Shown here piece by piece: positions 40,906 to 63,010 of a DNA stretch of 64,000 nt. The notes below the pieces were generated by a model. It was not told the origin of the DNA and did not search any database. It worked only from the letters and a program-made list of their open reading frames with translations. Where the stretch lies: the NCBI RefSeq assembly GCF_009745975.1, contig NZ_WHOL01000107.1, forward strand, positions 62,001 through 126,000, written 5' to 3'. Each line of letters starts with the position of its first letter. Position 1 is the stretch's first letter. The position numbers and the translations under genes were made by a program. The DNA comes from Actinokineospora pegani. GTDB lineage: Bacteria > Actinomycetota > Actinomycetes > Mycobacteriales > Pseudonocardiaceae.

Positions 40906-41023
40906 GGTTGTCCCTCCCTGTGCCGCCCCATCGTGCCACCGGCGCCGGGTCGCTGCCTCGGACTGCTGATCCCCCCTTGCGGGGTCGAGGCCGGGGCCGG
41001 TCTGCCTGGGATCAAGAGGCCGT

Positions 41024-41050
41024 GGTTGCGCCCGCCGATCGGGCGCAACC
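41024..41050. promoter_or_regulatory. Perfect 10-bp inverted repeat, probable operator
   Basis: GGTTGCGCCC (41024-41033) and GGGCGCAACC (41041-41050) with the spacer GCCGATC lie between the divergent XRE regulator and SDR genes, 37 bases before the SDR start. It could bind the MmyB-like regulator or form an mRNA hairpin. Confidence 0.5.
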
Positions 41051-41087
41051 TGGGGTCGCACCACCCCCAGGACACCAGGAGCAGCAC

Positions 41088-42193: not shown

Positions 42194-43027
42194 CTAGCCG
42201 CGGTCGAGGGTCTCGCGGGCGGTGCGCAGGACGGCGGGGTCGAGGAAGTGGCCGTCGGGGTCGACCGCGGTCGACTCGCCCGCCTGGACACGGGCCAGCA
42301 GGGCGGTGGCGGCGGCCACCTCCTCGGCGGTGGCGGTGAACCCGGCGTTGATCACCGGGACCTGCCCGGGGTGCAGGGCGGTCCGGGCGCGGAAGCCCTG
42401 GCGCAGCAGGGTGGCGGTGGTGCGGGTCAGGCGGTCGGCGTCGGCGACGGTGGTCTCGACCGGGCCGACCGGGGCGGGCAGGCCGGTGGCCGCGCAGGCG
42501 AGCACGACCTGCAGCCGGACGCCGTGCAGTTCGGTGCGGTCGGCGTCGGGGCGCACCCGCAGCTCGCCCGCCAGGTCCGCCTCGCCGATGCCCAACCGGA
42601 CCACCCGGGGGGCCCGGCACACCTGTTCGGCGTGCAGGACCCCCGCCGCGGTCTCGATGAGCGCGATGACCGGGACGGCGCCACCGGGCAGGCCGCGCTC
42701 GCGCTCCAACCCGGAGAGCAGGTCGTCGAGCCGGGCCAGGGCTGCGGGCTCGGCCTTGGGCAGCCACACCCCGGCCAGACCCGGACCGACCACCGCGGCC
42801 AGGTCGGCCGCCAAGGCGTCGGCGCCCGGGTTGACCCGCACCCACAGCGGGGTGCCCCCCGGCCCTGCCCGCAGTGCCGCGGCCGCGGCGGTCCGGGCGG
42901 CGGCCTTGGCCGGGACCGGCACGGCGTCCTCGAGGTCGATGATGACCGCGTCGGCGGCGGAGGCCGTGGCCTTCGGCACCCGGTCGGGGCGGTGGCCGGG
43001 CACGTACAGGTAGGAGCGGGCGGGCAT
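42194..43027 (-). CDS. CitE-like CoA-ester lyase (HpcH/HpaI family)
   Basis: A 277-residue protein starting MPARSYLYVPGHRPDRVPKA. IIDLEDAVPVPAK carries the metal-binding acidic pair, PLWVRVNPGAD the arginine motif, and VPVIALIETAAGVL with RLGIGEADLAGEL the second metal glutamate and aspartate. Relatives cleave citramalyl-CoA, malyl-CoA or similar 3-hydroxyacyl-CoA esters to pyruvate or glyoxylate plus an acyl-CoA. Its ATG overlaps the IclR stop. As the last gene of the minus operon in the large catabolic locus, it is a good candidate for the final carbon-carbon cleavage. Confidence 0.85.
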   Translation of the reverse strand: MPARSYLYVPGHRPDRVPKATASAADAVIIDLEDAVPVPAKAAARTAAAAALRAGPGGTPLWVRVNPGADALAADLAAVVGPGLAGVWLPKAEPAALARLDDLLSGLERERGLPGGAVPVIALIETAAGVLHAEQVCRAPRVVRLGIGEADLAGELRVRPDADRTELHGVRLQVVLACAATGLPAPVGPVETTVADADRLTRTTATLLRQGFRARTALHPGQVPVINAGFTATAEEVAAATALLARVQAGESTAVDPDGHFLDPAVLRTARETLDRG

Positions 43028-43773
43028 CAGGTCCCCCGGAGCATCTCGGAGACGGTGGCGGCGGCGGCCACCACGGACGGGCCGAAGGTCTCCCGGGTGG
43101 ACTCGGCCAGCCGGGCGTGCGGGCCGCAGATGCTGAAGCAGGCGAACGCCCGGGAGCCGCGGCCGAGGATGGGCGCGGCGACGGCGGCGGCGTACGGGTC
43201 GCGCTCGCCGCTGCTCTCGGTGTAGCCGCGGGCCCGGTCGGCGGCCAGGACCTCGCGGAGGGTGTCCCGGTCGCGGACGGTGTGCTCGGTGAGCGGGGCC
43301 AAGTCGATCTCGCCGAGGTACTGCTCCAGCTCGGACTCGCTGAAGGTCATCAGCATCGCCCGGCCGGACGCGCCCGCGTACAGCGGGGCCCGCCTGCCGA
43401 CCTCGACGGTCATCCGGACGTCCTGCCTGCTCTCGGCCTGGGCGACGTACACGCGCATCGCGCCGATCAGGAAGCTCAGGGTCACCGTCTCGCCGCTGCT
43501 GTCGCGCAGCTCGTCCATGACCGGCTGCGCCAGCGCCCGGACGTCCACGGTGCCGAGCGTGGCCAGGCTCAGCTCGGTCGCCCGCGGGCCGAGCCGGTAG
43601 CGGCCGCGGTCGTGCTCCTTGGTGGTGAGACCGGTCTTGGTCAGCGCCTCCAGCACCCGGTGGACCGCGCTCTTGGGCAGGTCCAGGCGCTGGGCGATGT
43701 CGGTCACCCCCAGCTCCGGCTCACCGCTGGTGAAGCACAGCAGCACCCCGGCCACCCGTTCCACCGACTGCAT
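43027..43773 (-). CDS. IclR-family transcriptional regulator
   Basis: A 248-residue regulator. QSVERVAGVLLCFTSGEPEL and VTDIAQRLDLPKSAVHRVLE form the winged helix, and PLYAGASGRAMLMTFSE, YTESSGERDPYAAAVAAPI and the FACFSICGPHARL block form the effector-binding IclR domain. Members of the family control aromatic or acid catabolism in response to pathway metabolites. It sits between the flavoprotein gene (15 bases upstream) and the CitE-like gene in the minus operon and probably controls both divergent operons. Confidence 0.93.
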   Translation of the reverse strand: MQSVERVAGVLLCFTSGEPELGVTDIAQRLDLPKSAVHRVLEALTKTGLTTKEHDRGRYRLGPRATELSLATLGTVDVRALAQPVMDELRDSSGETVTLSFLIGAMRVYVAQAESRQDVRMTVEVGRRAPLYAGASGRAMLMTFSESELEQYLGEIDLAPLTEHTVRDRDTLREVLAADRARGYTESSGERDPYAAAVAAPILGRGSRAFACFSICGPHARLAESTRETFGPSVVAAAATVSEMLRGT

Positions 43774-43788
43774 CTGTTGTCCTCTCGG

Positions 43789-45762
43789 TCACAGCCTGCC
43801 GCGGAGCGCGGCCGCGGCGGCTGGTGTCTGGTCACCACCGGTCGCCGACAGGCCCGCGAGCCTGCCGTCGAACGCGGCTTCCAGTGCTGAGCGGGGCGCG
43901 TGCGCGTCCCCGACGACCGCGTGGTCCACGCCCAGGTCGCGCAGCGCGTCCGCCAGGTGCGCCACGGCGGTGGGCGGGCGGAGGAAGACCACCGACGAGA
44001 CGCCGTCGAGCACCTGGGTCCGCCCCGACAGCGGATCGGCCAAGATCATAGATCCTCCCGTCACCCGTACGGGTGTGCGCATGAGCAGTGCGGAGAAGTC
44101 GCGGCCGCGCAGCCGCTCCAGCAGCGCGGGCCTGGTGTAGAGCGAGACCCGCCAGGCCAGCGCGGGCCGGTCGGTGACCAGGGTGACCCGGCTGCCGTGC
44201 TCGAGCAGCAGCTCGGCGAGGGCCAGACCGGTCGCCGAGCCCTCCGAGTCGACGAGCACCGCGTGCCCGCCCGCGCGGCCCGGGTCCTCGACCGCCGCCC
44301 GCAGCGTGAGCGCGGGGAAGTCCGCGTCCTCGGGGCCGGGCCGCTCGACGGCCCCGGTGGCGAGGACGACGTGGTCCCAGCCCTCGGCGAGCAGGCCGGG
44401 GTCGGCGGTCGTGCCCAGGCGCACCTCGGCGCCCGCGGCCCGCACGGCGGCGGCGAGCTGGTCGACGTAGACCCGGTAGCCGGGCCGCAGGACGGCGGCG
44501 AGGGTGAGCGCGCCGCCCAGCCGCGGGGCCGCGTCGAGCAGGGTGACCCGGTGGCCCACCTCGGCGGCGGCCAGCGCGGCCTCCATCCCGGCGGGTCCGC
44601 CGCCGACGACGAGCATCCGGCGGCGCGGCCCGCGGGCGGCGGCGGCGCGCAGCGCGGCCCACTCCCGCTCCAGCCCGGCCTCGGGGTTGACCACGCAGCC
44701 GATCGGCAGGCCCAGCTCCAGCCTGCCCGCGCAGCCCTGGTTGCAGGCGATGCAGTCGCGGCCCGCCCGCCGGTCGCGGTGGCGGGCGACGAGGTCCGGG
44801 ACCGCGATGTGCGGGCGGGCCAGCGCGACCAGGTCGGCGTCGCCGTCGGCGACCACCCGCTCGGCGTTGTCCAGGGTGTCCACCCGGCCGACCGCGAGGA
44901 CGGCGGTGCCGGGGAAGGCGTCCTTGAACGCCCGCGGCAGGTGCCGGAACGCCATCGGCGGGTAGGTCATGTCGGCCATCTGCGTGGCCACGCTCACCGA
45001 ACCGACGTAGGCCGAGTGGCTGACGTGCAGCACGTCGACCGGGAACTCGGCGAGCAGCGCGCCGACGACCTCGACCATCTCCGGCAGGCCGAGGCCGCCG
45101 GGCAGGAACTCGTCGGCGCTGATCCGCAGCAGCAGCGGCAGGTCGGTGGCCGCCGTGACCGAGGTGAGCACCTCGCGGGCCAGCCGGAGCCTGCGCTCGG
45201 GGTCGCCGCCGTAGGCGTCGTCGCGGTCGTTGCTCGCGGGGGAGAGGAACTGCTGGAGCAGGTGCCCGTGTCCCAAGTGGATCTCCACGGCGTCCGCCCC
45301 GGAGGTCTGGACCCGGGCGGCCGCGGCGCCGAAACCGGCGACCACCTCGGCGATCTCGGCGGTGGTCATCCGGTGCGGGGTGGCCGCGGTGCCCGACCAC
45401 GGCCGGTCGGAGGCGCCCCAGGGGGCGGTGAGCACGTGGTGCCCGCCCGCCTGCCTGCCCACGTGCAGCAGTTGCGCGGCGAGCTTGGCGCCCTCGTCGT
45501 GCACCGCGTCGACGAGGGCGGCCAGCGCGGGCACGACCCGGTCGTCGAAGGCGGCCACGGTGGTGGTGCGGCCGAGGCTCGTGGGGTGCACCCGCATCCC
45601 CTCGGTCACGATCAGGCCGACCCCGCCCGCGGCCCTGGCCCGGTGGTAGGCGGCGTGCCGGGCGGAGAACAGGCCGTCGACGGCGAAGTTCGTGGTGTGC
45701 GCGGGCATCACGACGCGGTTGCGCAGCGACAACCGTCCCACCTGGACTGGCTCGAGCAGCAC
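43789..45762 (-). CDS. FMN/FAD/4Fe-4S oxidoreductase of the 2,4-dienoyl-CoA reductase/TMADH type
   Basis: A 657-residue flavoprotein. Residues 1-330 form the OYE-like FMN barrel (LSLRNRVVMPAHTTNF, HLGHGHLLQQFLSPASNDR). CIACNQGC then LPIGC (Cys337, 340, 344, 356) is a canonical 4Fe-4S site. Residues about 370-657 hold a dinucleotide-binding fold (MLVVGGGPAGMEAAL) and a second Rossmann region. It probably reduces or oxidises a small unsaturated or amine substrate. The GTG at 45762 is preferred because AGGAGG lies six bases upstream; a GTG at 45780 has no such site. It is paralogous to the gene at 47580 across the divergent promoter. Confidence 0.88.
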   Translation of the reverse strand: MLLEPVQVGRLSLRNRVVMPAHTTNFAVDGLFSARHAAYHRARAAGGVGLIVTEGMRVHPTSLGRTTTVAAFDDRVVPALAALVDAVHDEGAKLAAQLLHVGRQAGGHHVLTAPWGASDRPWSGTAATPHRMTTAEIAEVVAGFGAAAARVQTSGADAVEIHLGHGHLLQQFLSPASNDRDDAYGGDPERRLRLAREVLTSVTAATDLPLLLRISADEFLPGGLGLPEMVEVVGALLAEFPVDVLHVSHSAYVGSVSVATQMADMTYPPMAFRHLPRAFKDAFPGTAVLAVGRVDTLDNAERVVADGDADLVALARPHIAVPDLVARHRDRRAGRDCIACNQGCAGRLELGLPIGCVVNPEAGLEREWAALRAAAARGPRRRMLVVGGGPAGMEAALAAAEVGHRVTLLDAAPRLGGALTLAAVLRPGYRVYVDQLAAAVRAAGAEVRLGTTADPGLLAEGWDHVVLATGAVERPGPEDADFPALTLRAAVEDPGRAGGHAVLVDSEGSATGLALAELLLEHGSRVTLVTDRPALAWRVSLYTRPALLERLRGRDFSALLMRTPVRVTGGSMILADPLSGRTQVLDGVSSVVFLRPPTAVAHLADALRDLGVDHAVVGDAHAPRSALEAAFDGRLAGLSATGGDQTPAAAAALRGRL

Positions 45763-45919
45763 CGGTGACCTCCTCGTCACGTCCCGTCAACCGCGCGTGT
45801 CCACATGGCACGAATGCGTTTCGTCTCACATGAACTCTTGACAATGCCCGTCCAGCCTATTGGTATGTGGAACAACAAAGCAACCAAATCCCGCTGAGCG
45901 GAACAGATCGAGGTCTCGG
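45763..45919. promoter_or_regulatory. Divergent promoter/operator region of the catabolic locus
   Basis: For the plus operon, TTGACA (45838-45843) and TGGTAT (45861-45866) are 17 bases apart. ACGAA-TGCGT-TTCGT at 45810-45824 is a short palindrome, and TTGGT (45860-45864) with ACCAA (45883-45887) is a wider one overlapping the -10; both are candidate IclR sites. The region is richer in A and T than its surroundings. Confidence 0.5.
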
Positions 45920-47578
45920 ATGGCGATCAGCATGGCGAAGAGAGCAAACGCGACACGGATTTTGCGCCGAACGGCGCGTGCTGGGGCGCTGGTGACCGCT
46001 GTCGCGCTGGTGGCGAGCGCCTGCGGCGGCGGCGGTCAGTCCTCGGGCCAGGGCGGGTCGAACGAGACCTTCACCTACGCCCTGACCGGCCTGCCCACCA
46101 GCCTCGACCCGGCCGACTACCAGGGCGACCCGTCGCGCAACATCGGCTTCGAGCTGAGCAGCGCGCTGTTCCGCTGGGACACCGAGGGCCTGCCCGAGCA
46201 GGGCTGCGGCACGCTGGCCAACGTCGGCCAGCTCACCGGCGAGCTGGCCGAGTCCTACGAGCGCGGTGCCGACGGCAAGAGCGTCACGGTGAAGCTGCGC
46301 GAGATGAAGAGCGCGGCGGGCAACCCGCTGACGGCCAACGACGTCAAGTGGACCTTCGACCGGCTCATCGCGCTGAAGGTCAGCACGCCGGGCACCCTGA
46401 TGCAGGACATCGCCGACTACGCCGCCGACCCGATCAAGGTCGTCGACGACCGCACGTTCCAGATCGTCCTCGACGAGCCCTCCGCCATGGACCTGGCCAT
46501 CCTGACCTGGTCGCAGTTCCGCGTCCTGGACAGCACCGAGGCGAAGAAGAACGTCACCGCCGACGACCCGTGGGCCAAGAAGTACCTGGCCGCCAACGCC
46601 GCCACCTTCGGTCCGTGGACCCAGACCCCGGCCGAGTTCGTGGCGGGCGACCGGCTCACCCTCTCGCCCAACCCCAACTACACCGGGGAGCGCGGCGACG
46701 TCCGAAAGCTGATCTTCCTGGCCGTGCCGGACGCCGCCAGCCGGGCCCAGCTCGTCTCCACCGGCAACGCCAACTACGCCACCGCCCTGCAGTACGAGCA
46801 GTACGCCCAGCTCAAGACGAACACCGGCGTCGAGGTCCAGACCTGCGCCTCGGCCGACCGCATCCCGCTGGTGCTCAACGCCAAGGACCCGAACCTGGCC
46901 AAGCCGGAGGTGCGCCGGGCCATCTCGATGGCCCTGGACCGCAAGACCATCGTCGACGCCGTCTACCGCGGCTTCAACAAGCCCTCGCTCTACGGTGTCA
47001 GCCAGGCCTACGGCGTCGACCCGGGTCCCGAAGGCGCCTACGAGTTCAACGTGGACGAGGCCAAGGCGCTGCTGGCGCGGGCCGGGGTCGGCCCGCTGGC
47101 CATCACCCTGCACATCAGCCCGGCCCGGCCGGGCTCGGAGGCCGAGCAGATCGCCATCCTGGTCAAGTCCCAGCTCGCCGCGATCGGCGTCGAGGTCAAC
47201 ATCCAGACCGTGGCCAGCGCCACCGAGATCAACACGATCTTCAAGGACGCCAGCTACCAGGCGATGCTCTACCTGGAGCCGCCCGCGGTCGCCGACCCCT
47301 ACTACTCGGTGTTCCTCTACAACTCCTCGGCCAGCAAGCTCAACACCTTCGGCTACAAGAACCCCGAGCTGGACGCGATCGCCACCGAGCTGGGCACGAC
47401 CGAGCCCGGCCCCGAGCGCGACGAGCTGCACAAGCAGGCCGCTGAGCAACTGGTGAGCAACCCCGGCTTCATCTACCTGATCGACCGGGACTTCGTGCAC
47501 GCCGTTCGCAAGGGCTTCACCAACTACCAGCACGCGCCCAACGGCGAGATGTTCGTGCACACCCTGAAGAAGGGCTGA
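45920..47578 (+). CDS. ABC transporter solute-binding lipoprotein (peptide/opine/nickel type, family 5)
   Basis: A 552-residue secreted lipoprotein. The signal peptide ends in ALVASAC followed by GGGG. The mature part is a family 5 binding protein: TSLDPADYQGDPSRNIGF at the start, SVTVKLREMKSAAGNPLTAND with VKWTFDRL, the VRRAISMALDRKTIVDAVYR block, and PYYSVFLYNSSASKLN near the end. ATG 45920 follows GAGG at six bases. It should catch the substrate outside the cell and deliver it to the DppBC-like permease encoded further along the operon. It is the first gene of a fifteen-gene run and is one base from the next gene. Confidence 0.93.
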   Translation: MAISMAKRANATRILRRTARAGALVTAVALVASACGGGGQSSGQGGSNETFTYALTGLPTSLDPADYQGDPSRNIGFELSSALFRWDTEGLPEQGCGTLANVGQLTGELAESYERGADGKSVTVKLREMKSAAGNPLTANDVKWTFDRLIALKVSTPGTLMQDIADYAADPIKVVDDRTFQIVLDEPSAMDLAILTWSQFRVLDSTEAKKNVTADDPWAKKYLAANAATFGPWTQTPAEFVAGDRLTLSPNPNYTGERGDVRKLIFLAVPDAASRAQLVSTGNANYATALQYEQYAQLKTNTGVEVQTCASADRIPLVLNAKDPNLAKPEVRRAISMALDRKTIVDAVYRGFNKPSLYGVSQAYGVDPGPEGAYEFNVDEAKALLARAGVGPLAITLHISPARPGSEAEQIAILVKSQLAAIGVEVNIQTVASATEINTIFKDASYQAMLYLEPPAVADPYYSVFLYNSSASKLNTFGYKNPELDAIATELGTTEPGPERDELHKQAAEQLVSNPGFIYLIDRDFVHAVRKGFTNYQHAPNGEMFVHTLKKG

Positions 47579-47579
47579 C

Positions 47580-49574
47580 ATGAACGACTACCCCACCTTG
47601 TTCAGCCCGCTCCGGATCGGCCCGCTGACGGCGAAGAACCGCGTGTGGATGACAGCGCACAGCACACAACTGGTGAAGGACCACAACTTCACCGACGAGC
47701 ACGTGCACTACTACGCCGAGCGCGCCCGCGGCGGCGTCGGGGTCATCACCATGGAGGCGATGGCCGTGCACCCCACGACCCAGCCGTACAAGGGGAAGAT
47801 CTTCGCCTTCGACCCCGCCGTGGTGCCCAACTACGAGAAGCTGGCCGCGGCCGTGCACGAGCACGGCACGCTGCTGCTGGCCCAGCCCTGGCACCGCGGC
47901 CGGGAGACCAGCGGCACGGTCAACCGGCTGCCGGTGTGGGCGCCGTCGTCGGTGCCGGACGTGGTCTACCGCGAGATGCCGCACGTGCTGGTGGACGAGG
48001 AGATCGACGAGCTGGTCAACGGCTACACCCTGGCGGCCAGGCACGCCGTGGAGGGCGGCCTGGACGGGGTGGAGGTGCACGGCCTGGCCCACGGCTACCT
48101 GCTCGGCCAGTTCCTCTCGCCCGCCACCAACCACCGCACCGACCAGTTCGGCGGGTCGTTCGAGAACCGGCTCCGGCTCGTCCTCGACATCATCGCCAGG
48201 ACCAGGGCCGAGACCGGCCGCACCAAGATCGTCGGCGTCCGGATCAACGGCAGCGACGGCGGCGTGCCCGGCGGGCTCACCAACGCGGACTGGGCGCGGA
48301 TCGCCCGGGCCATCGCCGACACCGGCCTGGTCGACTACATCTCGGTCACCCGCGGCACCTACATCGAGCGGATGGACATCTACGGCGCCACCCCGCAGCC
48401 CGCCGGGTTCCAGGTCGAGGACACCGCCCGGATCAAGGCCGCGGTGCCCGAGCTGCCGGTGGTGGTCGTGGGCCGGATGAACACCCCGGAGCTGGCCGAG
48501 CAGGTGCTCGCCGCCGGACAGGCCGACATGGTGGGCATGGCCCGGCAGCTCATCGCCGACCCGGAGTGGTCCAACAAGGCCCGCGACGGCAAGGCGACCT
48601 CGATCCGGCCGTGCGTCGGGGCGAACTGGTGCATGGCCTCGATCGTCAACTCGCCGCTGGCCTGCGTGCACAACCCGGCGGTCGGCCGCGAGCTGACCCT
48701 CGGCGCGGGCACGCTGACCGACGCCCCGGCGGCCAAGCGGGTCGCCGTGGTCGGCGGGGGGCCGGGCGGGATGCGCGCGGCGCTGACCGCCGCCCAGCGC
48801 GGGCACCGGGTGACCCTGTTCGAGCAGGACGACGAGCTGGGCGGGCAGGTGCGGCTGATCGGCCGCTCGGAGACCTACGCCGAGTGGCAGGGGATCACCG
48901 ACTGGCTGATCTCCCAGCTCGACCAGACCGACGTCCAGGTGCAGCTCAAGCACCGGGCCGAGGCCGACGAGCTGCTCGCCGAGGGCTTCGACGAGGTGGT
49001 CGTGGCCACCGGGTCGACCCCGCTCAAGCACGGGTGGAGCTCGCTGCGCCCGTCCTCGTGGGGGGACGGGACGGTCGTGCCCGGCGCGGACCAGTGGAAC
49101 GTCTACTCGATCGCCGAGGCGCTCTCGGGCAAGGCGCGGATCGGGCCCCGGGTGTTCATCTTCGACGACACCGGCGCCCGGCAGCCGGTGGTGGCCGCGG
49201 AGTACCTGGCCGACCGCAGGCACGAGGTCACCCTGGTGACCCGGCTCCCGCAGGTCGCCCCCGACCTCGAGGCCAGCCGCGACCTGCAGGCCACCTACCG
49301 CCGCCTCCGCAACAAGGGCATCCGGTTCATCACCGACCACGAGGTCGACGCGGTGGTGGAGGACTCGGTGGTGCTCCGCGACGTCTGGACCGGCGAGACC
49401 ACCACCCACACCGACGTCGACGCGGTGGTGCTCAGCACCGGCAACGCCGCGGACGACGCGCTCTACCACGCCCTCAAGGGCCGACTGCCGGTGCGCGCGA
49501 TCGGCGACTGCGTGTCGCCGCGCCGCATCTTCAACGCCATCTGGGAAGGCGAACTCGCCGGACGGGAGATCTGA
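47580..49574 (+). CDS. Second TMADH/2,4-dienoyl-CoA reductase-like flavoprotein with altered Fe-S site
   Basis: A 664-residue flavoprotein parallel to the one at 43789. Its FMN barrel has LTAKNRVWMTAHSTQL and GLAHGYLLGQFLSPATNHR, and VAVVGGGPGGMRAALTAAQ begins the dinucleotide domain. The iron-sulfur region reads CVGANWC then LAC: Cys345, Ala348, Cys351, Cys362. By alignment with trimethylamine dehydrogenase from memory, position 348 should be the second cluster cysteine. Three cysteines could hold a 4Fe-4S cluster with a fourth ligand, a 3Fe-4S cluster, or none. It lies between the binding-protein gene and the CMD gene and is likely a core catabolic enzyme. Confidence 0.88.
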   Translation: MNDYPTLFSPLRIGPLTAKNRVWMTAHSTQLVKDHNFTDEHVHYYAERARGGVGVITMEAMAVHPTTQPYKGKIFAFDPAVVPNYEKLAAAVHEHGTLLLAQPWHRGRETSGTVNRLPVWAPSSVPDVVYREMPHVLVDEEIDELVNGYTLAARHAVEGGLDGVEVHGLAHGYLLGQFLSPATNHRTDQFGGSFENRLRLVLDIIARTRAETGRTKIVGVRINGSDGGVPGGLTNADWARIARAIADTGLVDYISVTRGTYIERMDIYGATPQPAGFQVEDTARIKAAVPELPVVVVGRMNTPELAEQVLAAGQADMVGMARQLIADPEWSNKARDGKATSIRPCVGANWCMASIVNSPLACVHNPAVGRELTLGAGTLTDAPAAKRVAVVGGGPGGMRAALTAAQRGHRVTLFEQDDELGGQVRLIGRSETYAEWQGITDWLISQLDQTDVQVQLKHRAEADELLAEGFDEVVVATGSTPLKHGWSSLRPSSWGDGTVVPGADQWNVYSIAEALSGKARIGPRVFIFDDTGARQPVVAAEYLADRRHEVTLVTRLPQVAPDLEASRDLQATYRRLRNKGIRFITDHEVDAVVEDSVVLRDVWTGETTTHTDVDAVVLSTGNAADDALYHALKGRLPVRAIGDCVSPRRIFNAIWEGELAGREI

Positions 49575-49580
49575 ACACCC

Positions 49581-50000
49581 ATGCCGACCAACAACACGGC
49601 CACCAGCACGCCGACCAGCAGTGCCGAGCTGACCGACGAGCAGATCGTCGAGCGGGCCAGGGCCAAGCGCGGCGGCACGCTGCTGCCGGTGCACCAGCTC
49701 ATGGCCGAGGTGGACCCGCAGATCCTGCGCAAGTACGACGACCTGGCCTCGGACCTGCTCTTCGCCGAGCAGCCGCGCGCACTCGACCTCAAGACCCGCT
49801 ACCTGGTGCTGTGCGGGATCACCACGGCGGTCAAGGGCGACCCGGACGGGATCGTCTGGAGCGCGAAGCGGGCCATGAAGGAGGGCGCCTCGCGCCGGGA
49901 GGTGCTGGAGGCGATCCTGCTGTCCGCGCTGCCCGGCGGCGTGCCCACCGTCGAGGAGGCCACGCACGTGTTCGGCCGGATCTTCGACGACGAGTCCTGA
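49581..50000 (+). CDS. Carboxymuconolactone decarboxylase (CMD) family protein
   Basis: A 139-residue helical protein. LDLKTRYLVLCGITTAVKGD and MKEGASRREVLEAILLSALPGG are the two family blocks. The usual AhpD-type CxxC pair is absent: the matching place holds only the single Cys in LVLCGI. CMD relatives without the cysteine pair include true decarboxylases and proteins of unknown role. It is six bases after the flavoprotein gene and fourteen before the DUF2848 gene, so it belongs to the operon. The first 20 residues are a Thr/Ser-rich tail. Confidence 0.82.
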   Translation: MPTNNTATSTPTSSAELTDEQIVERARAKRGGTLLPVHQLMAEVDPQILRKYDDLASDLLFAEQPRALDLKTRYLVLCGITTAVKGDPDGIVWSAKRAMKEGASRREVLEAILLSALPGGVPTVEEATHVFGRIFDDES

Positions 50001-50013
50001 GCGGGGCGGCCGG

Positions 50014-53324: not shown

Positions 53325-54171
53325 GACGACCAAGGCCCCGGCCCGCCCGTCGGTCGCGCACTCGGTGTGGCGCGCGGTGCGCGGCAACCCGGGCATCGCC
53401 ATCGGCGGCGGGATGCTGCTGGCCATGCTGCTCGCGGCGTTCTTCGCGCCGCTGCCCTACGACCCGATCACCCCGGACCCGACCAGCGTCCAGCAGGCGC
53501 CGTCCGGCGCGCACGTCTTCGGCACCGACGCCAACGGGTTCGACGTGTTCTCCCGGGTCGTCGCGGCCGGTCGCAGCGACCTGGTGCTGGCGCTGCTGGG
53601 CACGCTCGTCTCACTCGTCGTCGGCCTGCTGATCGGGCTGCCGCTGAGCACCAAGAGCCGCTACAGCGAGGGGTTCATGCGGGCCCTGGACGCCTTCCAG
53701 TCCTTCCCGCTGATCGTGCTGTCGGTGACCATCGTGTCGCTGACCGGCAACGCCATCCAGAACATCGTCTACGCCATCGTCATCATCAACGGACCCCGGT
53801 TCATCCGGCTCATCCGCGGCGAGGCGCTGGCCATCCGCGACGGCCGGTTCATCGAGGCCGCCGTCGCCACCGGGGCCCGGCCGCGGCGGATCGTGTTCCG
53901 CCACATCATGCCCAACGTGGTCGACGTCTGCCTGGTGCAGTGCTCGCTCACCGCGGCCAACGCCGTGATCGTCATCGCGGCGCTGAACTTCCTCGGCATC
54001 GGCGTCTCACCGCCGGACCCGACCTGGGGCTCGATGGTCCAGGTCGGCGCCCAGGGCATCTCGACCGGCCAGTGGTGGGTCGCGATCTGGCCGGGGGTGG
54101 CGATCTTCGTCGCCATCGCCAGCCTGAACGTGCTCGCCAACGGCATCCAGCGACGGATGGAGGGGAGCTGA
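53317..54171 (+). CDS. ABC transporter permease, DppC-like
   Basis: A 284-residue permease. The VFGTDANGFDVFSRVVAAGR block near residue 70 is typical of DppC/OppC proteins, and FIEAAVATGARPRRIVFRHI is the EAA loop. About six helices are visible. The start overlaps the DppB-like gene by eight bases, and the next ATPase gene begins one base after its stop. It completes the membrane part of the importer. Confidence 0.93.
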   Translation: MSETTKAPARPSVAHSVWRAVRGNPGIAIGGGMLLAMLLAAFFAPLPYDPITPDPTSVQQAPSGAHVFGTDANGFDVFSRVVAAGRSDLVLALLGTLVSLVVGLLIGLPLSTKSRYSEGFMRALDAFQSFPLIVLSVTIVSLTGNAIQNIVYAIVIINGPRFIRLIRGEALAIRDGRFIEAAVATGARPRRIVFRHIMPNVVDVCLVQCSLTAANAVIVIAALNFLGIGVSPPDPTWGSMVQVGAQGISTGQWWVAIWPGVAIFVAIASLNVLANGIQRRMEGS

Positions 54172-54172
54172 C

Positions 54173-55974: not shown

Positions 55975-56792
55975 GCGCCGGGTACCTGGACGCCCCGTGG
56001 GGCCAGGTCCACTACCACCACGCGCCCGGCGCGCCGGTCACCGAGCAACTGCGCGACGGCCGACCGCTGCTGGTGCTGCTGCACCAGAGCCCGCTCTCGG
56101 GCCGCCGCTACCGGCGGGCACTGGCCGGGCTGGCCGGGTTCTGCGTCCCGGTGGCCGTCGACACCCCCGGCTACGGCAACTCCGGCCCGCCGGGCGGGCA
56201 GTGGTCGGCCGCCGACTACGGGGCGGTGGCCTGGCTGGTCGCCGACGCGTTCGGCGCCGAGCGGCCGTGGCTGTTCGGCCGGGCCACCGGCGCGGTGTTC
56301 GCCCTCGCCGCCGCGGCCGGGCAGCCGGGCCGGGCGGCGGGCGTGGTGCTGCACGGCCTGCCGGTCTACACCGAGGCGGAGAAGGCCGACCGCCTCGCCG
56401 GGTTCGCCCCGCCGTACGCCCCCGACGACGACGGCGCGCACCTGGCCTGGATCTGGGCCCGGGTGCGCGGGGAGTACCCGTGGGCGGACCCGGCGCTGAG
56501 CACCGACCTGGTGGCCGACTACCTGGCCGCCGGACCCGACTTCGCCGCCTCCTACCGGGCCGTCTGGCGGCACGACCTGGCGGCTGCCGCCGAGCGGGCC
56601 GGGCCGGTGGACCTGCTGCTGGCGGGCGCCGCCGACCGGATCGGGCACATGCACGCCCGCGCCGTGGCCGCCGTGGCCCACACCCGGGCGGCGGTGCTGG
56701 CCGGGGCCACCGACTTCGTCGCCGAGCAGGACCCGGCCGCCTTCTGCGGCGCGCTCGCCGACACCATCGACCGAACGGGGGAAACGGCATGA
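55971..56792 (+). CDS. Alpha/beta-hydrolase-fold protein lacking nucleophile and histidine
   Basis: A 273-residue protein with a clear alpha/beta-hydrolase layout: VLLHQSPLSGRRYRRAL as the oxyanion loop, VAVDTPGYGNSG as the family block, LFGRATGAVFAL as the nucleophile elbow, and LLLAGAADRIG before the acid. The nucleophile position is Ala105 (GRATG instead of GxSxG), and where the catalytic histidine is expected the sequence is ATDFVAEQDP (Thr247-Asp248). Thus it cannot be a classical serine hydrolase. It could bind the substrate, act by general acid-base chemistry as a lyase, or be a pseudoenzyme. It is coupled on both sides in the operon, so it is likely expressed and useful. Confidence 0.8.
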   Translation: MSAGYLDAPWGQVHYHHAPGAPVTEQLRDGRPLLVLLHQSPLSGRRYRRALAGLAGFCVPVAVDTPGYGNSGPPGGQWSAADYGAVAWLVADAFGAERPWLFGRATGAVFALAAAAGQPGRAAGVVLHGLPVYTEAEKADRLAGFAPPYAPDDDGAHLAWIWARVRGEYPWADPALSTDLVADYLAAGPDFAASYRAVWRHDLAAAAERAGPVDLLLAGAADRIGHMHARAVAAVAHTRAAVLAGATDFVAEQDPAAFCGALADTIDRTGETA

Positions 56793-57994
56793 CCGCCACA
56801 CCGGGCGACGGCCCGCTGACCGGACTGCGGGTGATCGACGCCTCCACCATCCTGGCCGGGCCGCTGTGCTGCCAGCTCCTGGGCGACTACGGGGCCGAGG
56901 TCATCAAGGTCGAGCACCCGCAGCGCGGCGACGGGATGCGCGGGCACGGCCCGGCCAAGGACGGCGAACCGCTGTGGTGGAAGGAGATCTCCCGCAACAA
57001 GCGCACCGTGGCCGCCTCCCTGTCCACACCGGACGGCGCGGAGCTGCTGCTGCGCCTGGCCGAGCGCTCCGACGTGCTGGTGGAGAACTTCCGCCCGGGG
57101 ACCCTGGAGCGCTGGGGCCTGGGCCCCGACGTGCTGCTGGCGCGCAACCCCCGGCTGGTCGTGGTCCGGGTGACCGGCTTCGGCCAGACCGGGCCCTACG
57201 CCGCCCGCGCGGGCTTCGGCACCCTGGCCGAGGCGATGAGCGGGTTCGCCCACCTCACCGGCCCGGCCGACGCCCCGCCGTCGCTGCCCGCCTTCGGCCT
57301 GGCCGACACCGTGTGCGGCATCGCCGCCACCGCCGCCACCATGATGGCCCTGCACGAGCGCGACCGCTCCGGGGCGGGCCAGGTCGTCGACATGAACCTG
57401 CTGACCCCGCTGCTGACCGCCGTCGGCCCCGGCCCCACGGTCTACGACCAGCTCGGCGTGGTGGGCACCCGGCACGGCAACCGGTCGGTCAACAACGCCC
57501 CCCGCAACACCTACCGCACCGCGGACGGCAAGTGGGTCGCGGTCTCCACCAGCGCCCAGAGCATCGCCGAGCGGGTCATGCGCCTCGTCGGGCACCCCGA
57601 GGTGATCGACGAGCCGTGGTTCGCCACCGGCGGCCAGCGCGCCGAACACGCCGACCTGCTCGACGCGCACGTCGGCGGCTGGATCGCCCAGCGCACCCGG
57701 GCGGAGGTGCTGGCCGCCTTCGACGCGGCGGGCGCCGCCGTGGCCCCGGTCTACGACGCCGCCGACATCGTCGCCGACGAACACGTGAGGAAGACAGAGA
57801 TGCTGACCACCGCGCCGGACGCCAAGCTGGGCGACGTCCTGATGCACAACATCATGTGGGGGATGTCCCGGACCCCCGGGCGCATCCGGCACGTCGGCCG
57901 CGACCTGGGCGCCGACACCGACGCCGTGCTCGGTGAGCTCGGCTACCGCCCCGAGGACATCGACGCCATGCGCGCCCGCGGAGCGGTCGCGTGA
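56789..57994 (+). CDS. Type III CoA-transferase (CaiB/BaiF family)
   Basis: A 401-residue enzyme. GLRVIDASTILAGPLCCQLL is the family start, GAEVIKVEHPQRGDGMR the CoA loop, and LPAFGLADTVCGIAA contains the catalytic aspartate that forms an acyl-CoA anhydride. It moves CoA from an acyl-CoA donor to a carboxylic acid. Its ATG overlaps the preceding stop, and its own stop overlaps the cyclase start. In the pathway it would activate a (di)carboxylic acid for later cleavage. Confidence 0.92.
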   Translation: MTATPGDGPLTGLRVIDASTILAGPLCCQLLGDYGAEVIKVEHPQRGDGMRGHGPAKDGEPLWWKEISRNKRTVAASLSTPDGAELLLRLAERSDVLVENFRPGTLERWGLGPDVLLARNPRLVVVRVTGFGQTGPYAARAGFGTLAEAMSGFAHLTGPADAPPSLPAFGLADTVCGIAATAATMMALHERDRSGAGQVVDMNLLTPLLTAVGPGPTVYDQLGVVGTRHGNRSVNNAPRNTYRTADGKWVAVSTSAQSIAERVMRLVGHPEVIDEPWFATGGQRAEHADLLDAHVGGWIAQRTRAEVLAAFDAAGAAVAPVYDAADIVADEHVRKTEMLTTAPDAKLGDVLMHNIMWGMSRTPGRIRHVGRDLGADTDAVLGELGYRPEDIDAMRARGAVA

Positions 57995-58842
57995 CCCCCC
58001 GCGTCGAGACCCGCGGGACGGCCTGGCTGTCGGCCGTGCTCAGCGGCGACCCGACGGTCTTCGACCTCGGGCGCTCGCTCTACCGCGGCATGCCGCAGTC
58101 GCCGAACCACCCGCCCTACTGGCACACCCTGCCGCGCAGGCACGGCGACGCCGTCCGCGCCGACGGCGGGTCCGCCGCCGCCGACCACATCTCGCTGGGC
58201 ACCCACGTCGGCACGCACATCGACGCGTTCTCCCACGTCTCCCACGACGGCAAGCTGCTCGGCGGGGTCGACGCGCAGGACGCCCAGCGCGGCGGGGCGA
58301 TGCGCGAACTGGGCGCGGAGACCATCGAGCCGATGTTCCGCCGGGGCGTGCTGCTCGACGTGCCCGCGGCGCTGGGGCTCGACTCCTGCGACCCCGGCTA
58401 CGAGATCACCCCGGCCGACCTGGAGCGCTGCGAGCAGCACCACGGCGTCCGGCTGGGCGCCGGGGAGGTGGCGCTGATCCGCAGCGGCTGGGGCGCCCGG
58501 TTCGACTCGCCGGACCCGCGCGAGTTCATCGGCCACGACTCCGGGGTCCCGGGCGTGGGCGAGGCCGGGGCGCGCTGGCTCGCCGACCGCGGCGCGCACG
58601 CGGTGGGCGCGGACACGATCGCGTTCGAGTGCCTGCCGCCCGGCCGGGGCCACAGCCTGCTGCCCGCGCACCGGGTGCTGCTGGTCGAGCGCGGCGTGCA
58701 CATCATCGAGACGATGGACCTGGAGGCGCTGGCCGCGGCGGGGGAGCACGAGTTCCTCTTCGTCCTCGCCCCCCTCAAGCTCGTCGGCGCCACCGGCTCC
58801 CCGGTTCGGCCGCTGGCCGTGGTCGCGGGGGGTCTGCGATGA
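57991..58842 (+). CDS. Cyclase-family amidohydrolase (kynurenine formamidase/isatin hydrolase-like)
   Basis: A 283-residue enzyme. ISLGTHVGTHIDAFSHVSH holds the HxGTHxDxxxH metal motif of the family, and FDLGRSLYRGMPQSPNHPP and AFECLPPGRGHSLLPAHRVLL match further conserved blocks. Relatives hydrolyse formyl-kynurenine, isatin or other cyclic amides with manganese or zinc. GTG 57991 overlaps the CoA-transferase stop. It suggests that an amide or lactam bond is opened in the pathway. Confidence 0.9.
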   Translation: MTPRVETRGTAWLSAVLSGDPTVFDLGRSLYRGMPQSPNHPPYWHTLPRRHGDAVRADGGSAAADHISLGTHVGTHIDAFSHVSHDGKLLGGVDAQDAQRGGAMRELGAETIEPMFRRGVLLDVPAALGLDSCDPGYEITPADLERCEQHHGVRLGAGEVALIRSGWGARFDSPDPREFIGHDSGVPGVGEAGARWLADRGAHAVGADTIAFECLPPGRGHSLLPAHRVLLVERGVHIIETMDLEALAAAGEHEFLFVLAPLKLVGATGSPVRPLAVVAGGLR

Positions 58843-60272
58843 CCGCCGTGGAGACGACGCTGTCGCACGCGTTGGCCGCGTTCGCCGCGCGCACCGCGCG
58901 GCGCCCGCTGCCACCGGAGGTCGCCGACAGCGTCCGCGACCGGGTGCTCGACGTCCTGGGCCTGTGCGTCGGGGCGCTGCCGCTGGACACCAGCGCCGCC
59001 GCCCTCGCCTACGTGCGCGAGCAGGCCGGGGCCGGGCAGGCGCACGTCGTCGGACAACCCGACCGGGTGCCCGCGGCCCTGGCCGCGCTGGCCAACGGCG
59101 TCCTGGCCCACTCGCTGGACTACGACGACACGCACCTGCCCTCGGTGCTGCACCCCAGCGCGTCGGTGGTGCCCGCCGCGCTCGCCGCGGCCGAGGCCGC
59201 GGGCTCCGACGGGACCGCCCTGCTGGCCGCGATCGCCACCGGGCTGGAGGTGTGCGTCCGGCTCGGGATGGCGGGCTACGACAGCGACGCCAAGACCTCG
59301 CTGTTCTTCGAGCACGGCCAGCACGCGACCTCCATCTGCGGGGCCGTGGGCAGCGCCGTGGCCGCCGCGATGCTGCTCGGCCTCGACGAGGCGGGCATCG
59401 GGCACGCGCTGGGCATCTCGGTGTCGATGGCCTCCGGGGTCATCGAGGCCAACCGCACCGGCGGGACGGTCAAGCGGCTGCACTGCGGCTGGGCCGCGCA
59501 CGCCGGGGTCTCGGCCGCGCAGCTGGCCGCCCACGGGTTCACCGGGCCGCCCGCCGCGCTGGAGGGCCGGTTCGGGTTCTTCCAGGCCCACCTGCACGGC
59601 CGGTTCGACCCGGCGGCGATCACCGACGGCCTGGGGGAGCGGTGGGAGGTGCCGGGCATCTTCTTCAAGCCCTACCCGGCCAACCACTTCACCCACACCA
59701 TTGTCGACGCCGCCGCCGACCTGCGGGCCCAGGGCGTCACACCCGAGGCGGTGGCGTCGTTGCGGGTCGGGGTCCCGGCGTCGGTGGTGCGCACCGTCGG
59801 CGAGCCGATCGAGCGCAAGCGGCTGCCCACCACGTCGTACGAGGCGCAGTTCAGCGGCCCGTACGCCGCCGTGGTCGGCCTGCTCGGCGGCGGCGGCCTC
59901 GGCGCCGCCCTGTCCGACTACGCGCCGGACCTGCTCACCGAGCCGGGGCGCACCGCCCTGATGGCCAAGACGACGGTGGTCGCCGACGACGAGTGCACCG
60001 AGATCTTCCCGCACCAGTTCCCGTGCGTGCTGCGGGCGCGCACGGTGGACGGTCGCGAGTGGACGACCAAGGCGCTGGTCAACCGGGGCGGGCCGGACAA
60101 CCCGCTGACGCGGGAGGAACTGCGGACCAAGTTCCGCGAGAACGTGACGGGCCTGCTGGCCCCGCGGGCGGCCGAGGCCGTCGAGGCGGCGGTGGCGGGA
60201 CTCGGCGGGGCAGCGACACCGGGCGAGCTGATGGCGCTGGTCCGGACCGATCGGGGGAACAGCCGTGGATAG
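58839..60272 (+). CDS. MmgE/PrpD family protein
   Basis: A 477-residue all-alpha and alpha/beta protein. DYDDTHLPSVLHPSASVVPA is the typical acidic-His block, LGISVSMASGVIEANRTGG with KRLHCGWAAHAGVSAAQLA the second, and FKPYPANHFTHTIVDAA the third. The family includes 2-methylcitrate dehydratase, cis-aconitate decarboxylase and imidazole or iminodisuccinate-related enzymes, all acting on tri- or dicarboxylates. The ATG overlaps the cyclase stop; the amidohydrolase start follows. It may dehydrate or decarboxylate a branched diacid. Confidence 0.92.
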   Translation: MTAVETTLSHALAAFAARTARRPLPPEVADSVRDRVLDVLGLCVGALPLDTSAAALAYVREQAGAGQAHVVGQPDRVPAALAALANGVLAHSLDYDDTHLPSVLHPSASVVPAALAAAEAAGSDGTALLAAIATGLEVCVRLGMAGYDSDAKTSLFFEHGQHATSICGAVGSAVAAAMLLGLDEAGIGHALGISVSMASGVIEANRTGGTVKRLHCGWAAHAGVSAAQLAAHGFTGPPAALEGRFGFFQAHLHGRFDPAAITDGLGERWEVPGIFFKPYPANHFTHTIVDAAADLRAQGVTPEAVASLRVGVPASVVRTVGEPIERKRLPTTSYEAQFSGPYAAVVGLLGGGGLGAALSDYAPDLLTEPGRTALMAKTTVVADDECTEIFPHQFPCVLRARTVDGREWTTKALVNRGGPDNPLTREELRTKFRENVTGLLAPRAAEAVEAAVAGLGGAATPGELMALVRTDRGNSRG

Positions 60273-60285
60273 CGAGGGAGTGGAC

Positions 60286-61737
60286 ATGTACGACCTGGTT
60301 CTGCGCGACGTCGACCTGGTCCGGCCGGGTGTCGAGGCGGTGGAGCGCACCGACATCGCCGTGCGCGCAGGCAAGATCGCCGCGATCGGCCCGGACCTCG
60401 GCCCGGCGGCCGAGGTCGTCGACGGCGGCGGGCGGCTGGCGTTCCCCGGCGTCGTCGACGCCCACCAGCACTGGGGCATCTACAACGAGCTGGGCGCCGA
60501 CACCGAGTCCGAGAGCCGGGCGTGCGCCCAGGGCGGGGTCACCACCGCGCTCAACTACATGCGCACCGGCCAGTACTACCTGAACAAGGGCGGGGAGTAC
60601 GCCGCCTTCTTCCCCGAGGTGCTCGCCGCCGCGAACGGCCGCGCCTACGTCGACTACGGGTTCCACCTCGCGCCGATGATGAGCAGGCACATCGCCGAGA
60701 TCCCCGACCTGGTCAGCGAGCACGGGGTGCCCTCGTTCAAGGTGTTCATGTTCTACGGCGCGCACGGCCTGCACGGCCGCTCCGCCGACCAGAGCTCGTT
60801 CCTGATGATCCCCGAGGGGGAGCGCTACGACTACGCGCACTTCGAGTTCGTCATGCGCGGCATCCAGGCCGCCCGGGAGCGGTTCCCCGAGCTGGCCGAC
60901 GAGATCTCGCTGTCGCTGCACTGCGAGACCGCCGAGATCATGACCGCCTACACCCGCCTGGTGGAGGAGGAGGGCACGCTCACCGGCCTGGAGGCGTACT
61001 CGGCCTCGCGCCCGGCGCACTCGGAGGGCCTGGCGATCTCGGTCGCCTCCTACCTGGCGCACGAGACCGGCCTGGTCAACATCAACCTGCTGCACCTGTC
61101 CTCGCGCAAGGCCGTGGACGCGGCACTGCGCATGGCCGAGGCGTTCCCGCACATCAACTTCCGCCGCGAGGTCACCATCGGCCACCTGCTGGCCGACTTC
61201 CGCACCGCCCACGGCATCGGCGGCAAGGTCAACCCCCCGCTCCGCGACCGCGACGACGTCGAGGCGCTGTGGGAGCACGTCGCCGCGGGCGACATCGACT
61301 GGGTGGTCAGCGACCACGCCTGCTGCCGCGACGAGACCAAGTTCGGCGCCGACCGCGACGACGTGTTCGTCGCCAAGTCCGGCTTCGGTGGCACCGAGTA
61401 CCTGCTCGCGGGCCTGCTCACCGAGGCCACCCGCCGCGGCCTGCCCCCGCACCGGGTCGCCGAACTCCTCTCGGCCAACCCGGCCTGCCGCTACGGCCTG
61501 CGCGCCAAGGGCGACATCGCGGTCGGCAAGGACGCCGACATCGCCCTGGTCGACCCCACCCACTCCTGGACGGTCCGCGCCGAGGACTCCGAGTCCACCC
61601 AGGAGTACACCCCGTTCGAGGGCTTCGAGCTGACCGCCAAGGTCACCGACACCTTCCTGCGCGGCCACCACGTCCTGGACAACGGCAAGATCACCGGCGA
61701 CCCGACGGGGACCTACCTGCGCCGTCCCACATCCTGA
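60286..61737 (+). CDS. Dihydropyrimidinase/hydantoinase-like amidohydrolase
   Basis: A 483-residue metal amidohydrolase. FPGVVDAHQHWG holds the first metal histidines, PSFKVFMFYGAHG the lysine that becomes carboxylated between two metals, SLHCETAEI and INLLHLSSRK the next histidines, and WVVSDHACC the catalytic aspartate. Members open hydantoin, dihydropyrimidine, allantoin or other cyclic amides. ATG 60286 is preferred because GAGGGAG lies five bases before it; GTGs at 60265 and 60280 are in frame. It is the last gene of the operon. Confidence 0.92.
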   Translation: MYDLVLRDVDLVRPGVEAVERTDIAVRAGKIAAIGPDLGPAAEVVDGGGRLAFPGVVDAHQHWGIYNELGADTESESRACAQGGVTTALNYMRTGQYYLNKGGEYAAFFPEVLAAANGRAYVDYGFHLAPMMSRHIAEIPDLVSEHGVPSFKVFMFYGAHGLHGRSADQSSFLMIPEGERYDYAHFEFVMRGIQAARERFPELADEISLSLHCETAEIMTAYTRLVEEEGTLTGLEAYSASRPAHSEGLAISVASYLAHETGLVNINLLHLSSRKAVDAALRMAEAFPHINFRREVTIGHLLADFRTAHGIGGKVNPPLRDRDDVEALWEHVAAGDIDWVVSDHACCRDETKFGADRDDVFVAKSGFGGTEYLLAGLLTEATRRGLPPHRVAELLSANPACRYGLRAKGDIAVGKDADIALVDPTHSWTVRAEDSESTQEYTPFEGFELTAKVTDTFLRGHHVLDNGKITGDPTGTYLRRPTS

Positions 61738-62841: not shown

Positions 62842-63010
62842 GACCTGTCCTTCTCGATCGGGTGCTCTTCTCGGGTGGAACAAGGGCGGGCCTGCGTTTA
62901 TTCATCCGGTTCGGCGATCCTGCCGGGCTGGCGGTGGTGCTGGGGCGCGCCGGTGTGAATCATCGAGGCAGGTTGGCCCTGTGTCCCCATCGGCGAGAGG
63001 TGTGATCTGC

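Follow-up and report, generated by a model that had tools for sequence, protein, structure and literature searches.

An 18-gene divergent locus in Actinokineospora pegani joins two gene modules that may form a pathway for ring compounds

Which compound do the products of an 18-gene locus in Actinokineospora pegani import and degrade? The locus fills positions 42194-61737 of the window, by which we mean the whole 64,000-nucleotide stretch of DNA analysed here (positions 62001-126000 of contig C107, accession NZ_WHOL01000107.1, in a source genome of 6.4 Mb and 128 contigs). An earlier examination of the letters alone (the sequence-only reading) had recognized one divergent uptake and catabolism locus and knew of no pathway with this mix of genes. 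Our search of the open-licence literature likewise found none: it yielded no description of either gene module defined below and no paper that names DUF2848, subscription papers lying mostly outside its scope. The single divergent locus stands, with the amendment that it is composed of two fused modules, A and B, each of which is also found apart.

Module A comprises an Opp-type ABC importer, two flavoproteins (FLAV1 and FLAV2), a carboxymuconolactone-decarboxylase-family protein (CMD), a DUF2848 protein, a maleate-isomerase-like protein, a short-chain dehydrogenase/reductase (SDR) and an alpha/beta hydrolase (ABH). Module B comprises a type III CoA-transferase (CoAT), a cyclase-family metal hydrolase (CYC), an MmgE/PrpD-family protein (PRPD), a dihydropyrimidinase/allantoinase-like cyclic amidohydrolase (HYD), a CitE-like lyase and an IclR-family regulator. 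On balance, we favour the interpretation that the enzymes of the fused modules degrade an oxidised ring compound by a reductive-hydrolytic route, the likeliest substrate being an N-heterocycle of the lactam, pyridone or imide type.

Gene layout

Eighteen open frames, three on the minus strand and fifteen on the plus strand, diverge from positions 45781-45919, and same-strand neighbours overlap or are separated by gaps of at most 15 bases, in keeping with the packed arrangement around one promoter region reported previously. CoAT, CYC and PRPD directly follow ABH, each with a 4-base overlap. Fifteen frames were chosen by codon-position GC; those starting at 52239, 56789 and 58839 were settled by frame, family and orthologs. 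Family scans covered 15 of the 18 proteins with Pfam and 16 with NCBIfam, and the families named by the sequence-only reading agree with both; CMD and ABH had been counted there and left unnamed.

42194-43027, minus strand: CitE-like CoA-ester lyase (HpcH/HpaI family), module B; PF03328 6.4e-31, best NCBIfam match RipC at 132.6 bits (cut-off 375)
43027-43773, minus strand: IclR-family regulator; PF01614 1.8e-41, PF09339; nearest NCBIfam models BhcR and PcaR, both under cut-off
43789-45780, minus strand: FLAV1, OYE/FadH-type flavoprotein with all four [4Fe-4S] cysteines (CIACNQGC...C); PF00724 2.2e-62; solved relatives DCR, NCR and histamine dehydrogenase
45920-47578, plus strand: substrate-binding lipoprotein (family 5) of the ABC importer; PF00496 4.1e-59; lipobox LVASACGG in the translation
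47580-49574, plus strand: FLAV2, OYE/FadH-type flavoprotein with Ala for the second Fe-S ligand Cys (CxxANxC); PF00724 8.9e-66; top solved relative NCR
49581-50000, plus strand: CMD; PF02627 1.9e-06
50014-50739, plus strand: DUF2848 protein, predicted FAH-fold hydrolase/lyase
50739-51527, plus strand: AMDase/EutA/maleate-isomerase-like protein with both family cysteines (ACTSGS, GCTNW); PF17645 4.1e-29; best solved relatives maleate isomerases
51520-52245, plus strand: SDR; PF13561 3.2e-57
52239-53324, plus strand: ABC permease, Opp/Dpp B type; NCBIfam Opp2B 2.7e-63, under cut-off
53317-54171, plus strand: ABC permease, OppC type; PF00528, PF12911
54173-54997, plus strand: ABC ATPase, OppD type; PF00005
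54994-55974, plus strand: ABC ATPase, OppF type; PF00005, PF08352
55971-56792, plus strand: ABH; PF00561 2.7e-07
56789-57994, plus strand: CoAT, module B; best NCBIfam match succinate-glutarate CoA-transferase at 226.5 bits (cut-off 750)
57991-58842, plus strand: CYC, module B; PF04199 8.2e-30; solved relatives include isatin hydrolase and kynurenine formamidase
58839-60272, plus strand: PRPD, module B; solved relatives cis-aconitate decarboxylase and IDS-epimerase; NCBIfam PrpD 6.1e-18, under cut-off
60286-61737, plus strand: HYD, module B; PF01979; solved relatives allantoinase and hydantoinase

Because none of the 16 proteins scanned passes an NCBIfam cut-off among the families displayed, no cluster protein can be named to its substrate. 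HYD, for example, stays below those for allantoinase (231.9 of 357.85 bits), dihydropyrimidinase (176.4 of 393.25) and ErtD (183.3 of 650). Similarly, the named solved relatives of the lipoprotein at 45920 bind peptides, opines, heme or nickel and indicate no substrate.

Conservation of the fused block

The DUF2848 protein served as the probe for orthologous loci in 390 genomes of the family, ten of which (the window's included) carry an ortholog at 66-100% identity, the next best match standing at 40%. Stretches of 21-40 kb were read around the nine other loci, using identity and half-length filters of our own choice. All 18 genes recur in identical layout in eight of the ten genomes (the window's, G013, G042, G063, G077, G235, G237 and G325), with the last cluster gene of G013 leaving its contig and ending on another. 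G039 keeps 15 genes at the locus, lacking CitE, CoAT and HYD there, and G044 keeps 14, lacking these three and CYC. The search for the same gene order that the sequence-only reading had proposed thus recovers the layout in most carriers; such sharing is far beyond chance, and the locus is a real, conserved 18-gene block.

Its boundaries, as first drawn, also hold, because the two flanking genes tested, an SDR gene at 40908-42056 and an ADH gene at 61822-62883, have no filtered match in the stretches around the nine other carriers. These carriers include Actinokineospora spheciospongiae, Actinophytocola algeriensis, A. xinjiangensis, an Actinophytocola metagenome-assembled genome (MAG), Pseudonocardia thermophila, Lentzea cavernae and L. 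fradiae. The distribution is patchy, as only 2 of the 16 genomes of the genus have a close DUF2848 ortholog. Pairwise identities of the 18 genes co-vary across seven genomes (mean r of 0.90 between A and B, minimum 0.71), as expected of a block that travels as one, which shared species history would also produce.

HYD and CoAT accompany module A in all ten genomes, because G039 and G044 have both (76% and 73-74% identity, respectively) in B operons away from the A locus; the base rate of HYD is 82 of 390 genomes. These two operons read, in order, FLAV1-like gene, a stretch of 1.6 kb, CoAT, CYC, PRPD, HYD and CitE. FLAV1-like proteins also accompany B without the rest of A, as do SDR- and ABH-like proteins in L178 and L191. 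We consider the association of the two modules suggestive rather than strong.

Each module also occurs alone

The core of module A is present in three alphaproteobacterial MAGs, where DUF2848 (49-53% identity), an Opp-type importer (28-51%), FLAV2 (55-56%; split in L060) and CMD (44-48%) stand consecutively. One of these loci (L059) also carries a FLAV1-like protein (43%) and a nearby molybdenum-hydroxylase subunit; the other two have three SDR matches each, and L058 has an alpha/beta hydrolase as well. FLAV2 matches at E<=1e-150 occur in 10 of 394 genomes of the class, G000 and G013 among them. The other eight, from another actinobacterial family, carry FLAV2 at 55-59%, adjoined in every case by an AMDase-like protein (24-29%) and a CoA-transferase (40-43%) and in four by an IclR regulator, with an HMGL-type lyase next in all three loci checked with Pfam. 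On a Rhodococcus plasmid, FLAV2 (55%) is found with an AMDase-like protein (26%), THI5-type importers and a cyclase (27%). CMD had no match in the plasmids searched.

Plasmid searches with HYD, CYC and PRPD led to common neighbour genes of module B. Rhodococcus gordoniae pDND3A carries PRPD (53%), CYC (55%), CitE (42%), IclR (39%), HYD (73%) and CoAT (65%), together with a FAD_binding_2 protein and an MFS transporter, and CoAT, CitE, PRPD and a cyclase also stand together in Streptantibioticus cattleyicolor and Burkholderia arboris. Across the Actinomycetia, module B is widespread in genomes that do not have A. Of 394 genomes of the class, 37 have CYC matches at E<=1e-50, and all 38 CYC loci other than those of the window and G013 were read, counting neighbours at >=35% identity over more than half their length (a looser count differs by one in three rows). 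CoAT was found in 28 of these loci, PRPD in 29, CitE in 24, and HYD and IclR in 19 each; 24 combine CoAT, CYC and PRPD, 14 hold all five enzymes and 8 have a flavoprotein of the kinds tested. These counts are lower bounds, because contig ends cut some stretches.

HYD orthologs (>=65%) are present in 82 of the 390 family genomes, from which 20 loci were hand-picked across genera. CoAT accompanies HYD in 19 of them, IclR in 18, a flavoprotein in 19, and CYC, PRPD and CitE in 13 each. The flavoproteins comprise 17 of the FAD_binding_2 type and 3 FLAV1-like proteins, one locus having both.

A molybdenum hydroxylase precedes the flavoprotein in sister operons

Among the six other B loci with a FLAV1-like protein, five (the B operons of G044, G039, G040, G382 and G737) carry a three-subunit molybdenum hydroxylase directly before the FLAV1-like gene; the sixth, L188, has none within its stretch. 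The subunits were identified by Pfam in L176 and by tblastn in the other four loci, the large subunit being truncated where the stretches of L180 and L196 end. CoxL-type CO dehydrogenase and quinoline 2-oxidoreductase chains resemble this large subunit most closely, and 3hrd is listed among its relatives; the subunit lacks AYxCSFR, which we take to be the CO-dehydrogenase loop motif. The succession of hydroxylase, flavoprotein and cyclic amidase genes in these sister operons lends indirect support, by analogy, to an N-heterocyclic substrate.

Predicted properties of the module-A enzymes

FLAV1 and FLAV2 each combine an Oxidored_FMN domain with a FAD/NAD(P) domain and share about one third of their residues. 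FLAV1 has four Fe-S cysteines and FLAV2 has three. Neither reaches the cut-off of the NCBIfam model mycofactocin OYE 2 (793.15 bits), FLAV2 scoring 658 and FLAV1 469.8, and the best solved relatives of FLAV2 are NCR, histamine dehydrogenase and DCR. At the aligned position that we take to carry the covalent (6-S-cysteinyl) FMN of trimethylamine dehydrogenase (TMADH) there is no Cys (AHST in FLAV2, AHTT in FLAV1). The two proteins had been called TMADH-like; FadH/OYE-type is the better name.

The reduced iron-sulfur motif typifies FLAV2 relatives from two phyla, with CxxANxC in 21 of the 22 sequences read (including window positions 47580-49574, L058-L060, L064 and L082-L095) and CxxSNxC in the remaining one. 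By eye, FLAV2-type proteins also have one extra residue in the HGxAHGYLL loop. Genes for TauD-family dioxygenases adjoin those of FLAV-type flavoproteins in L090 (an actinobacterium) and L059 (an alphaproteobacterium).

The DUF2848 protein, whose family had been given correctly by the sequence-only reading, can be further identified. Its structural model adopts the fumarylacetoacetate-hydrolase (FAH) fold, and every high-Z row of the fold comparison (the VIA list) is an FAH-superfamily entry, a list that by itself leaves room for other folds. Residues E84, E86, D103 and K118, placed by motif, are invariant in the 10 orthologs and in 32 of 32 distant homologs; they match E-x-E...D and a following Lys, presumably the ligand set of the FAH superfamily. 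The model and this motif point to an FAH-superfamily protein with E-x-E...D as its likely active site. Seven generic DUF2848 neighbourhoods, read out of 55 plasmid records, share no single common pathway, and six of them (two being near-copies) have an amidase or C-N hydrolase nearby. L068 and L070 (Caballeronia and Thioclava) have in common a gene set in which DUF2848 is accompanied by an HpaB-type monooxygenase, a flavin reductase, a cupin, an amidase and a branched-chain-type ABC importer, presumably a further pathway of its own.

The maleate-isomerase-like protein and its nine orthologs hold the motifs ACTSGS (ACTSVS in G042) and [GS]CTNW, the two cysteines of which are presumably the catalytic pair of the maleate isomerase/Asp-Glu racemase type.

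A candidate operator between the two arms

Three elements stand out in the divergent region.

45838-45843, plus strand: TTGACA, candidate -35 element of the plus-strand operon, aligned in nine of nine divergent intergenic regions
45869-45874, plus strand: GGAACA box 1, direct-repeat partner of the operator half-site, GGAACA or GGGACA in the alignment of nine regions
45888-45905, plus strand: candidate IclR operator ATCCCGCTGAGCGGAACA, its pattern conserved at the promoter in 10 of 10 genomes

The pattern WTCCCNNTGANCGGAACA lies ~45 bases after TTGACA in the nine aligned regions, that of G044 having one mismatch. Allowing for as many as two mismatches, the window contains one match, against a shuffle mean of 0.05. 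With at most one mismatch, a scan of ten whole genomes finds it at this promoter in all ten and at three other sites in total, the window's own genome having it at the divergent promoter only, and the control pattern, read backwards, has 1 site in the ten genomes. Because the pattern was built from nine of the ten regions, only G042 and the rarity elsewhere are independent. From these alignments we infer that IclR may bind the candidate operator, and it probably controls the divergent locus, inside which the sequence-only reading had placed it.

Proposed pathway and alternatives

Each step that we propose is predicted from protein families and gene context. The ring compound would be taken up by the Opp-type importer, its C=C bonds reduced by FLAV1 and FLAV2, and its cyclic amide hydrolysed by HYD. 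SDR, ABH, DUF2848 and CMD might then trim the opened chain by redox steps, C-C or C-N hydrolysis and possibly decarboxylation. The two-Cys maleate-isomerase-like protein could bring about a cis-trans or stereo change of an unsaturated diacid, and CYC could hydrolyse a remaining amide, lactone or diketone. Hydration of the unsaturated diacid by PRPD would give a hydroxy acid of the malate type. CoAT would activate this acid, and its cleavage by the CitE-like lyase would yield an acyl-CoA together with a 2-oxo acid. IclR would govern both arms through the operator between them. An end in CoA-transferase and CitE-like lyase had been suggested before and is supported here; the earlier guess of a nitrogen heterocycle or imide gains indirect support from the five sister operons with a molybdenum hydroxylase.

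Several findings weigh against this proposal. Eight of the ten genomes with both modules have them fused, so only G039 and G044, of one genus, are independent, and a third genome from it, G040, carries B but lacks a close DUF2848 ortholog. The alphaproteobacterial stretches with the A core (the stretches rather than whole genomes were covered) hold no match to HYD, CYC, PRPD or CitE, and FLAV2 in other actinobacteria accompanies HMGL-type lyases or THI5-type importers. HYD is missing from 19 of the 38 CYC loci and a flavoprotein of the tested kinds from 30, so neither is essential to the B core. Family scans of the 18 proteins revealed no ring monooxygenase. The L176 molybdenum subunits have no match in the window, so the substrate may arrive already oxidised. 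A strict scan for a full sigma-70 promoter found none, and rings free of nitrogen are substrates of OYE, FAH and PF04199 enzymes as well.

In a rather unlikely alternative, the ring would contain no nitrogen and the compound would be an enone or lactone of the terpenoid, polyketide or flavonoid type. FLAV1 and FLAV2 would then be ene-reductases, DUF2848, CYC and ABH would cleave C-C or ester bonds, and HYD would act on a minor N-bearing side product or be a diverged lactonase. Such a substrate fits the solved relatives of FLAV2, two of the three best being carbon-substrate reductases, as well as the CYC loci that lack HYD, the Burkholderia arboris version (MFS, zinc-ADH-family protein, CoAT, CitE, PRPD and cyclase, with no HYD match in 17 kb) and the HMGL-type ending of the three FLAV2 loci checked in the other actinobacterial family. 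It fits poorly with the molybdenum hydroxylase that precedes the flavoprotein in five of six loci, with CoAT beside HYD in 19 of 20 and with the amidase or C-N hydrolase neighbours of DUF2848 elsewhere. We think it improbable that A and B are independent pathways for different compounds that share a regulator and no metabolites. The separate A core of Alphaproteobacteria and B without A in the actinomycete loci read would agree with that arrangement; the 4-base overlaps of CoAT, CYC and PRPD after ABH, the fused order in eight genomes, the presence of both modules in the two unfused genomes, and the FLAV1-like proteins (and, in L178 and L191, the SDR- and ABH-like proteins) that accompany B without the rest of A all argue for a connection.

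Hardly credible, in our estimate, is a role of the flavoproteins as TMADH-type N-demethylases acting on a methylated amine or betaine. Their family resemblance to histamine and trimethylamine dehydrogenases and the TauD-type dioxygenases of L059 and L090 would accord with it. N-demethylation was set aside in view of the missing covalent-FMN Cys; FLAV2 also lacks one of the four Fe-S cysteines, and the family scans found no formaldehyde- or folate-linked family among the 18.

Relation to known pathways

Reductive pyrimidine degradation places beta-ureidopropionase beside dihydropyrimidinase. It was set aside because Pfam (15 proteins) and NCBIfam (3) found no CN-hydrolase or amidase family among the 18. 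Itaconate degradation, which employs a CoA-transferase, a hydratase and a RipC/CitE lyase, shares with the cluster a class III CoA-transferase and a CitE-family lyase whose best NCBIfam match is RipC. It too was set aside, as RipC scores 132.6 bits against a cut-off of 375 and no MaoC hydratase is among the families found; the cluster also differs in its added PRPD, CYC and HYD.

A molybdenum nicotinate hydroxylase catalyses the first step of the reductive nicotinate route. The route is a parallel in its logic, and hydroxylase, flavoprotein and cyclic amidase meet in the sister B operons as well. The window's cluster differs in having no molybdenum-hydroxylase match, an OYE/FadH-type flavoprotein and a lower half of PrpD, CoA-transferase and CitE; HYD belongs to the wider amidohydrolase family, and enamidase is not among the best 60 of its 87 solved relatives. 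In Eubacterium barkeri, Azorhizobium caulinodans and Bradyrhizobiaceae SG-6C, as far as the parts of the sources consulted describe it, nicotinate is degraded through 1,4,5,6-tetrahydro-6-oxonicotinate, so that, as we propose here, ring reduction precedes C-N hydrolysis, and ABC uptake genes lie in the cluster (PMC3511419, PMC9304392).

The hxn pathway of Aspergillus nidulans, in the text examined, employs the OYE alkene reductase HxnT, the SDR HxnW and the cyclic imidase HxnM in succession, an order like that proposed for the present enzymes (PMC9304392). It is fungal, includes monooxygenases and shows no CoA steps in that text, and the relatives described for HxnM are peptidoglycan deacetylase and PuuE rather than dihydropyrimidinase (PMC9304392). 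The 4-hydroxypyridine (kpi) pathway of Arthrobacter sp. IN13 likewise brings together an alpha/beta hydrolase, an Amidohydro_1 protein and an FAA-hydrolase for an N-heterocycle, according to the portion of the article consulted (PMC7356986). It differs in that a flavin monooxygenase starts the pathway and the dioxygenase KpiC opens the ring, and its main text contains 'CoA' and 'MmgE' 0 times (PMC7356986).

We suggest, tentatively and with slightly less than even confidence, that partly reduced N-heterocycles are degraded aerobically through module B, a lower pathway that is common in Actinomycetia and so far undescribed. Its front ends would be interchangeable: a molybdenum hydroxylase paired with a FLAV1-like protein, a FAD_binding_2 flavoprotein combined with MFS or ABC uptake, or module A with seven enzymes and an importer. 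Within module A, DUF2848 would then represent a new FAH-type hydrolase acting on a ring or chain, and FLAV2 would be a reductase of the OYE type whose iron-sulfur site has three cysteines. An anonymous operon becomes a testable modular pathway common to many actinomycetes and, in part, Alphaproteobacteria. DUF2848 gains a fold and a likely active site, and PF04199 cyclases, PrpD proteins and hydantoinase-like enzymes, usually annotated singly, are linked. The predicted operator and the importer offer handles for finding the substrate.

Further module-B relatives

A second CoAT-CYC-PRPD-HYD set in G325 (L178, contig C16) is accompanied by IclR (35%), SDR (53%) and ABH-like (38%) proteins and adjoined by M20 peptidase and ABC importer genes. 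A plasmid of Shinella sp. WSC3-e (L107:1-21362) has an analogous layout, with PrpD, two AcnA, PcaC, methylisocitrate-lyase-like, hydantoinase-like, isochorismatase, ALDH and AMDase-like proteins, an ABC importer and hemC, its annotation containing no CoA-transferase or CitE.

The hemC product, hydroxymethylbilane synthase, exceeds its NCBIfam cut-off on two plasmids (L105:7609-8640 and L107:19817-20749), and its gene is close to B genes in S. cattleyicolor (L105) and to the hydantoinase-like gene in Shinella (L107). HemC queries matched none of the 38 CYC loci, and we regard porphobilinogen or another pyrrole as a weak lead for the substrate.

Module-B genes are also found in actinobacterial assemblies of 1.4-1.9 Mb (L159 in G475, which is 70% complete, L161 in G424, L169 in G703 and L157 in G748), so the B pathway may matter in streamlined organisms.

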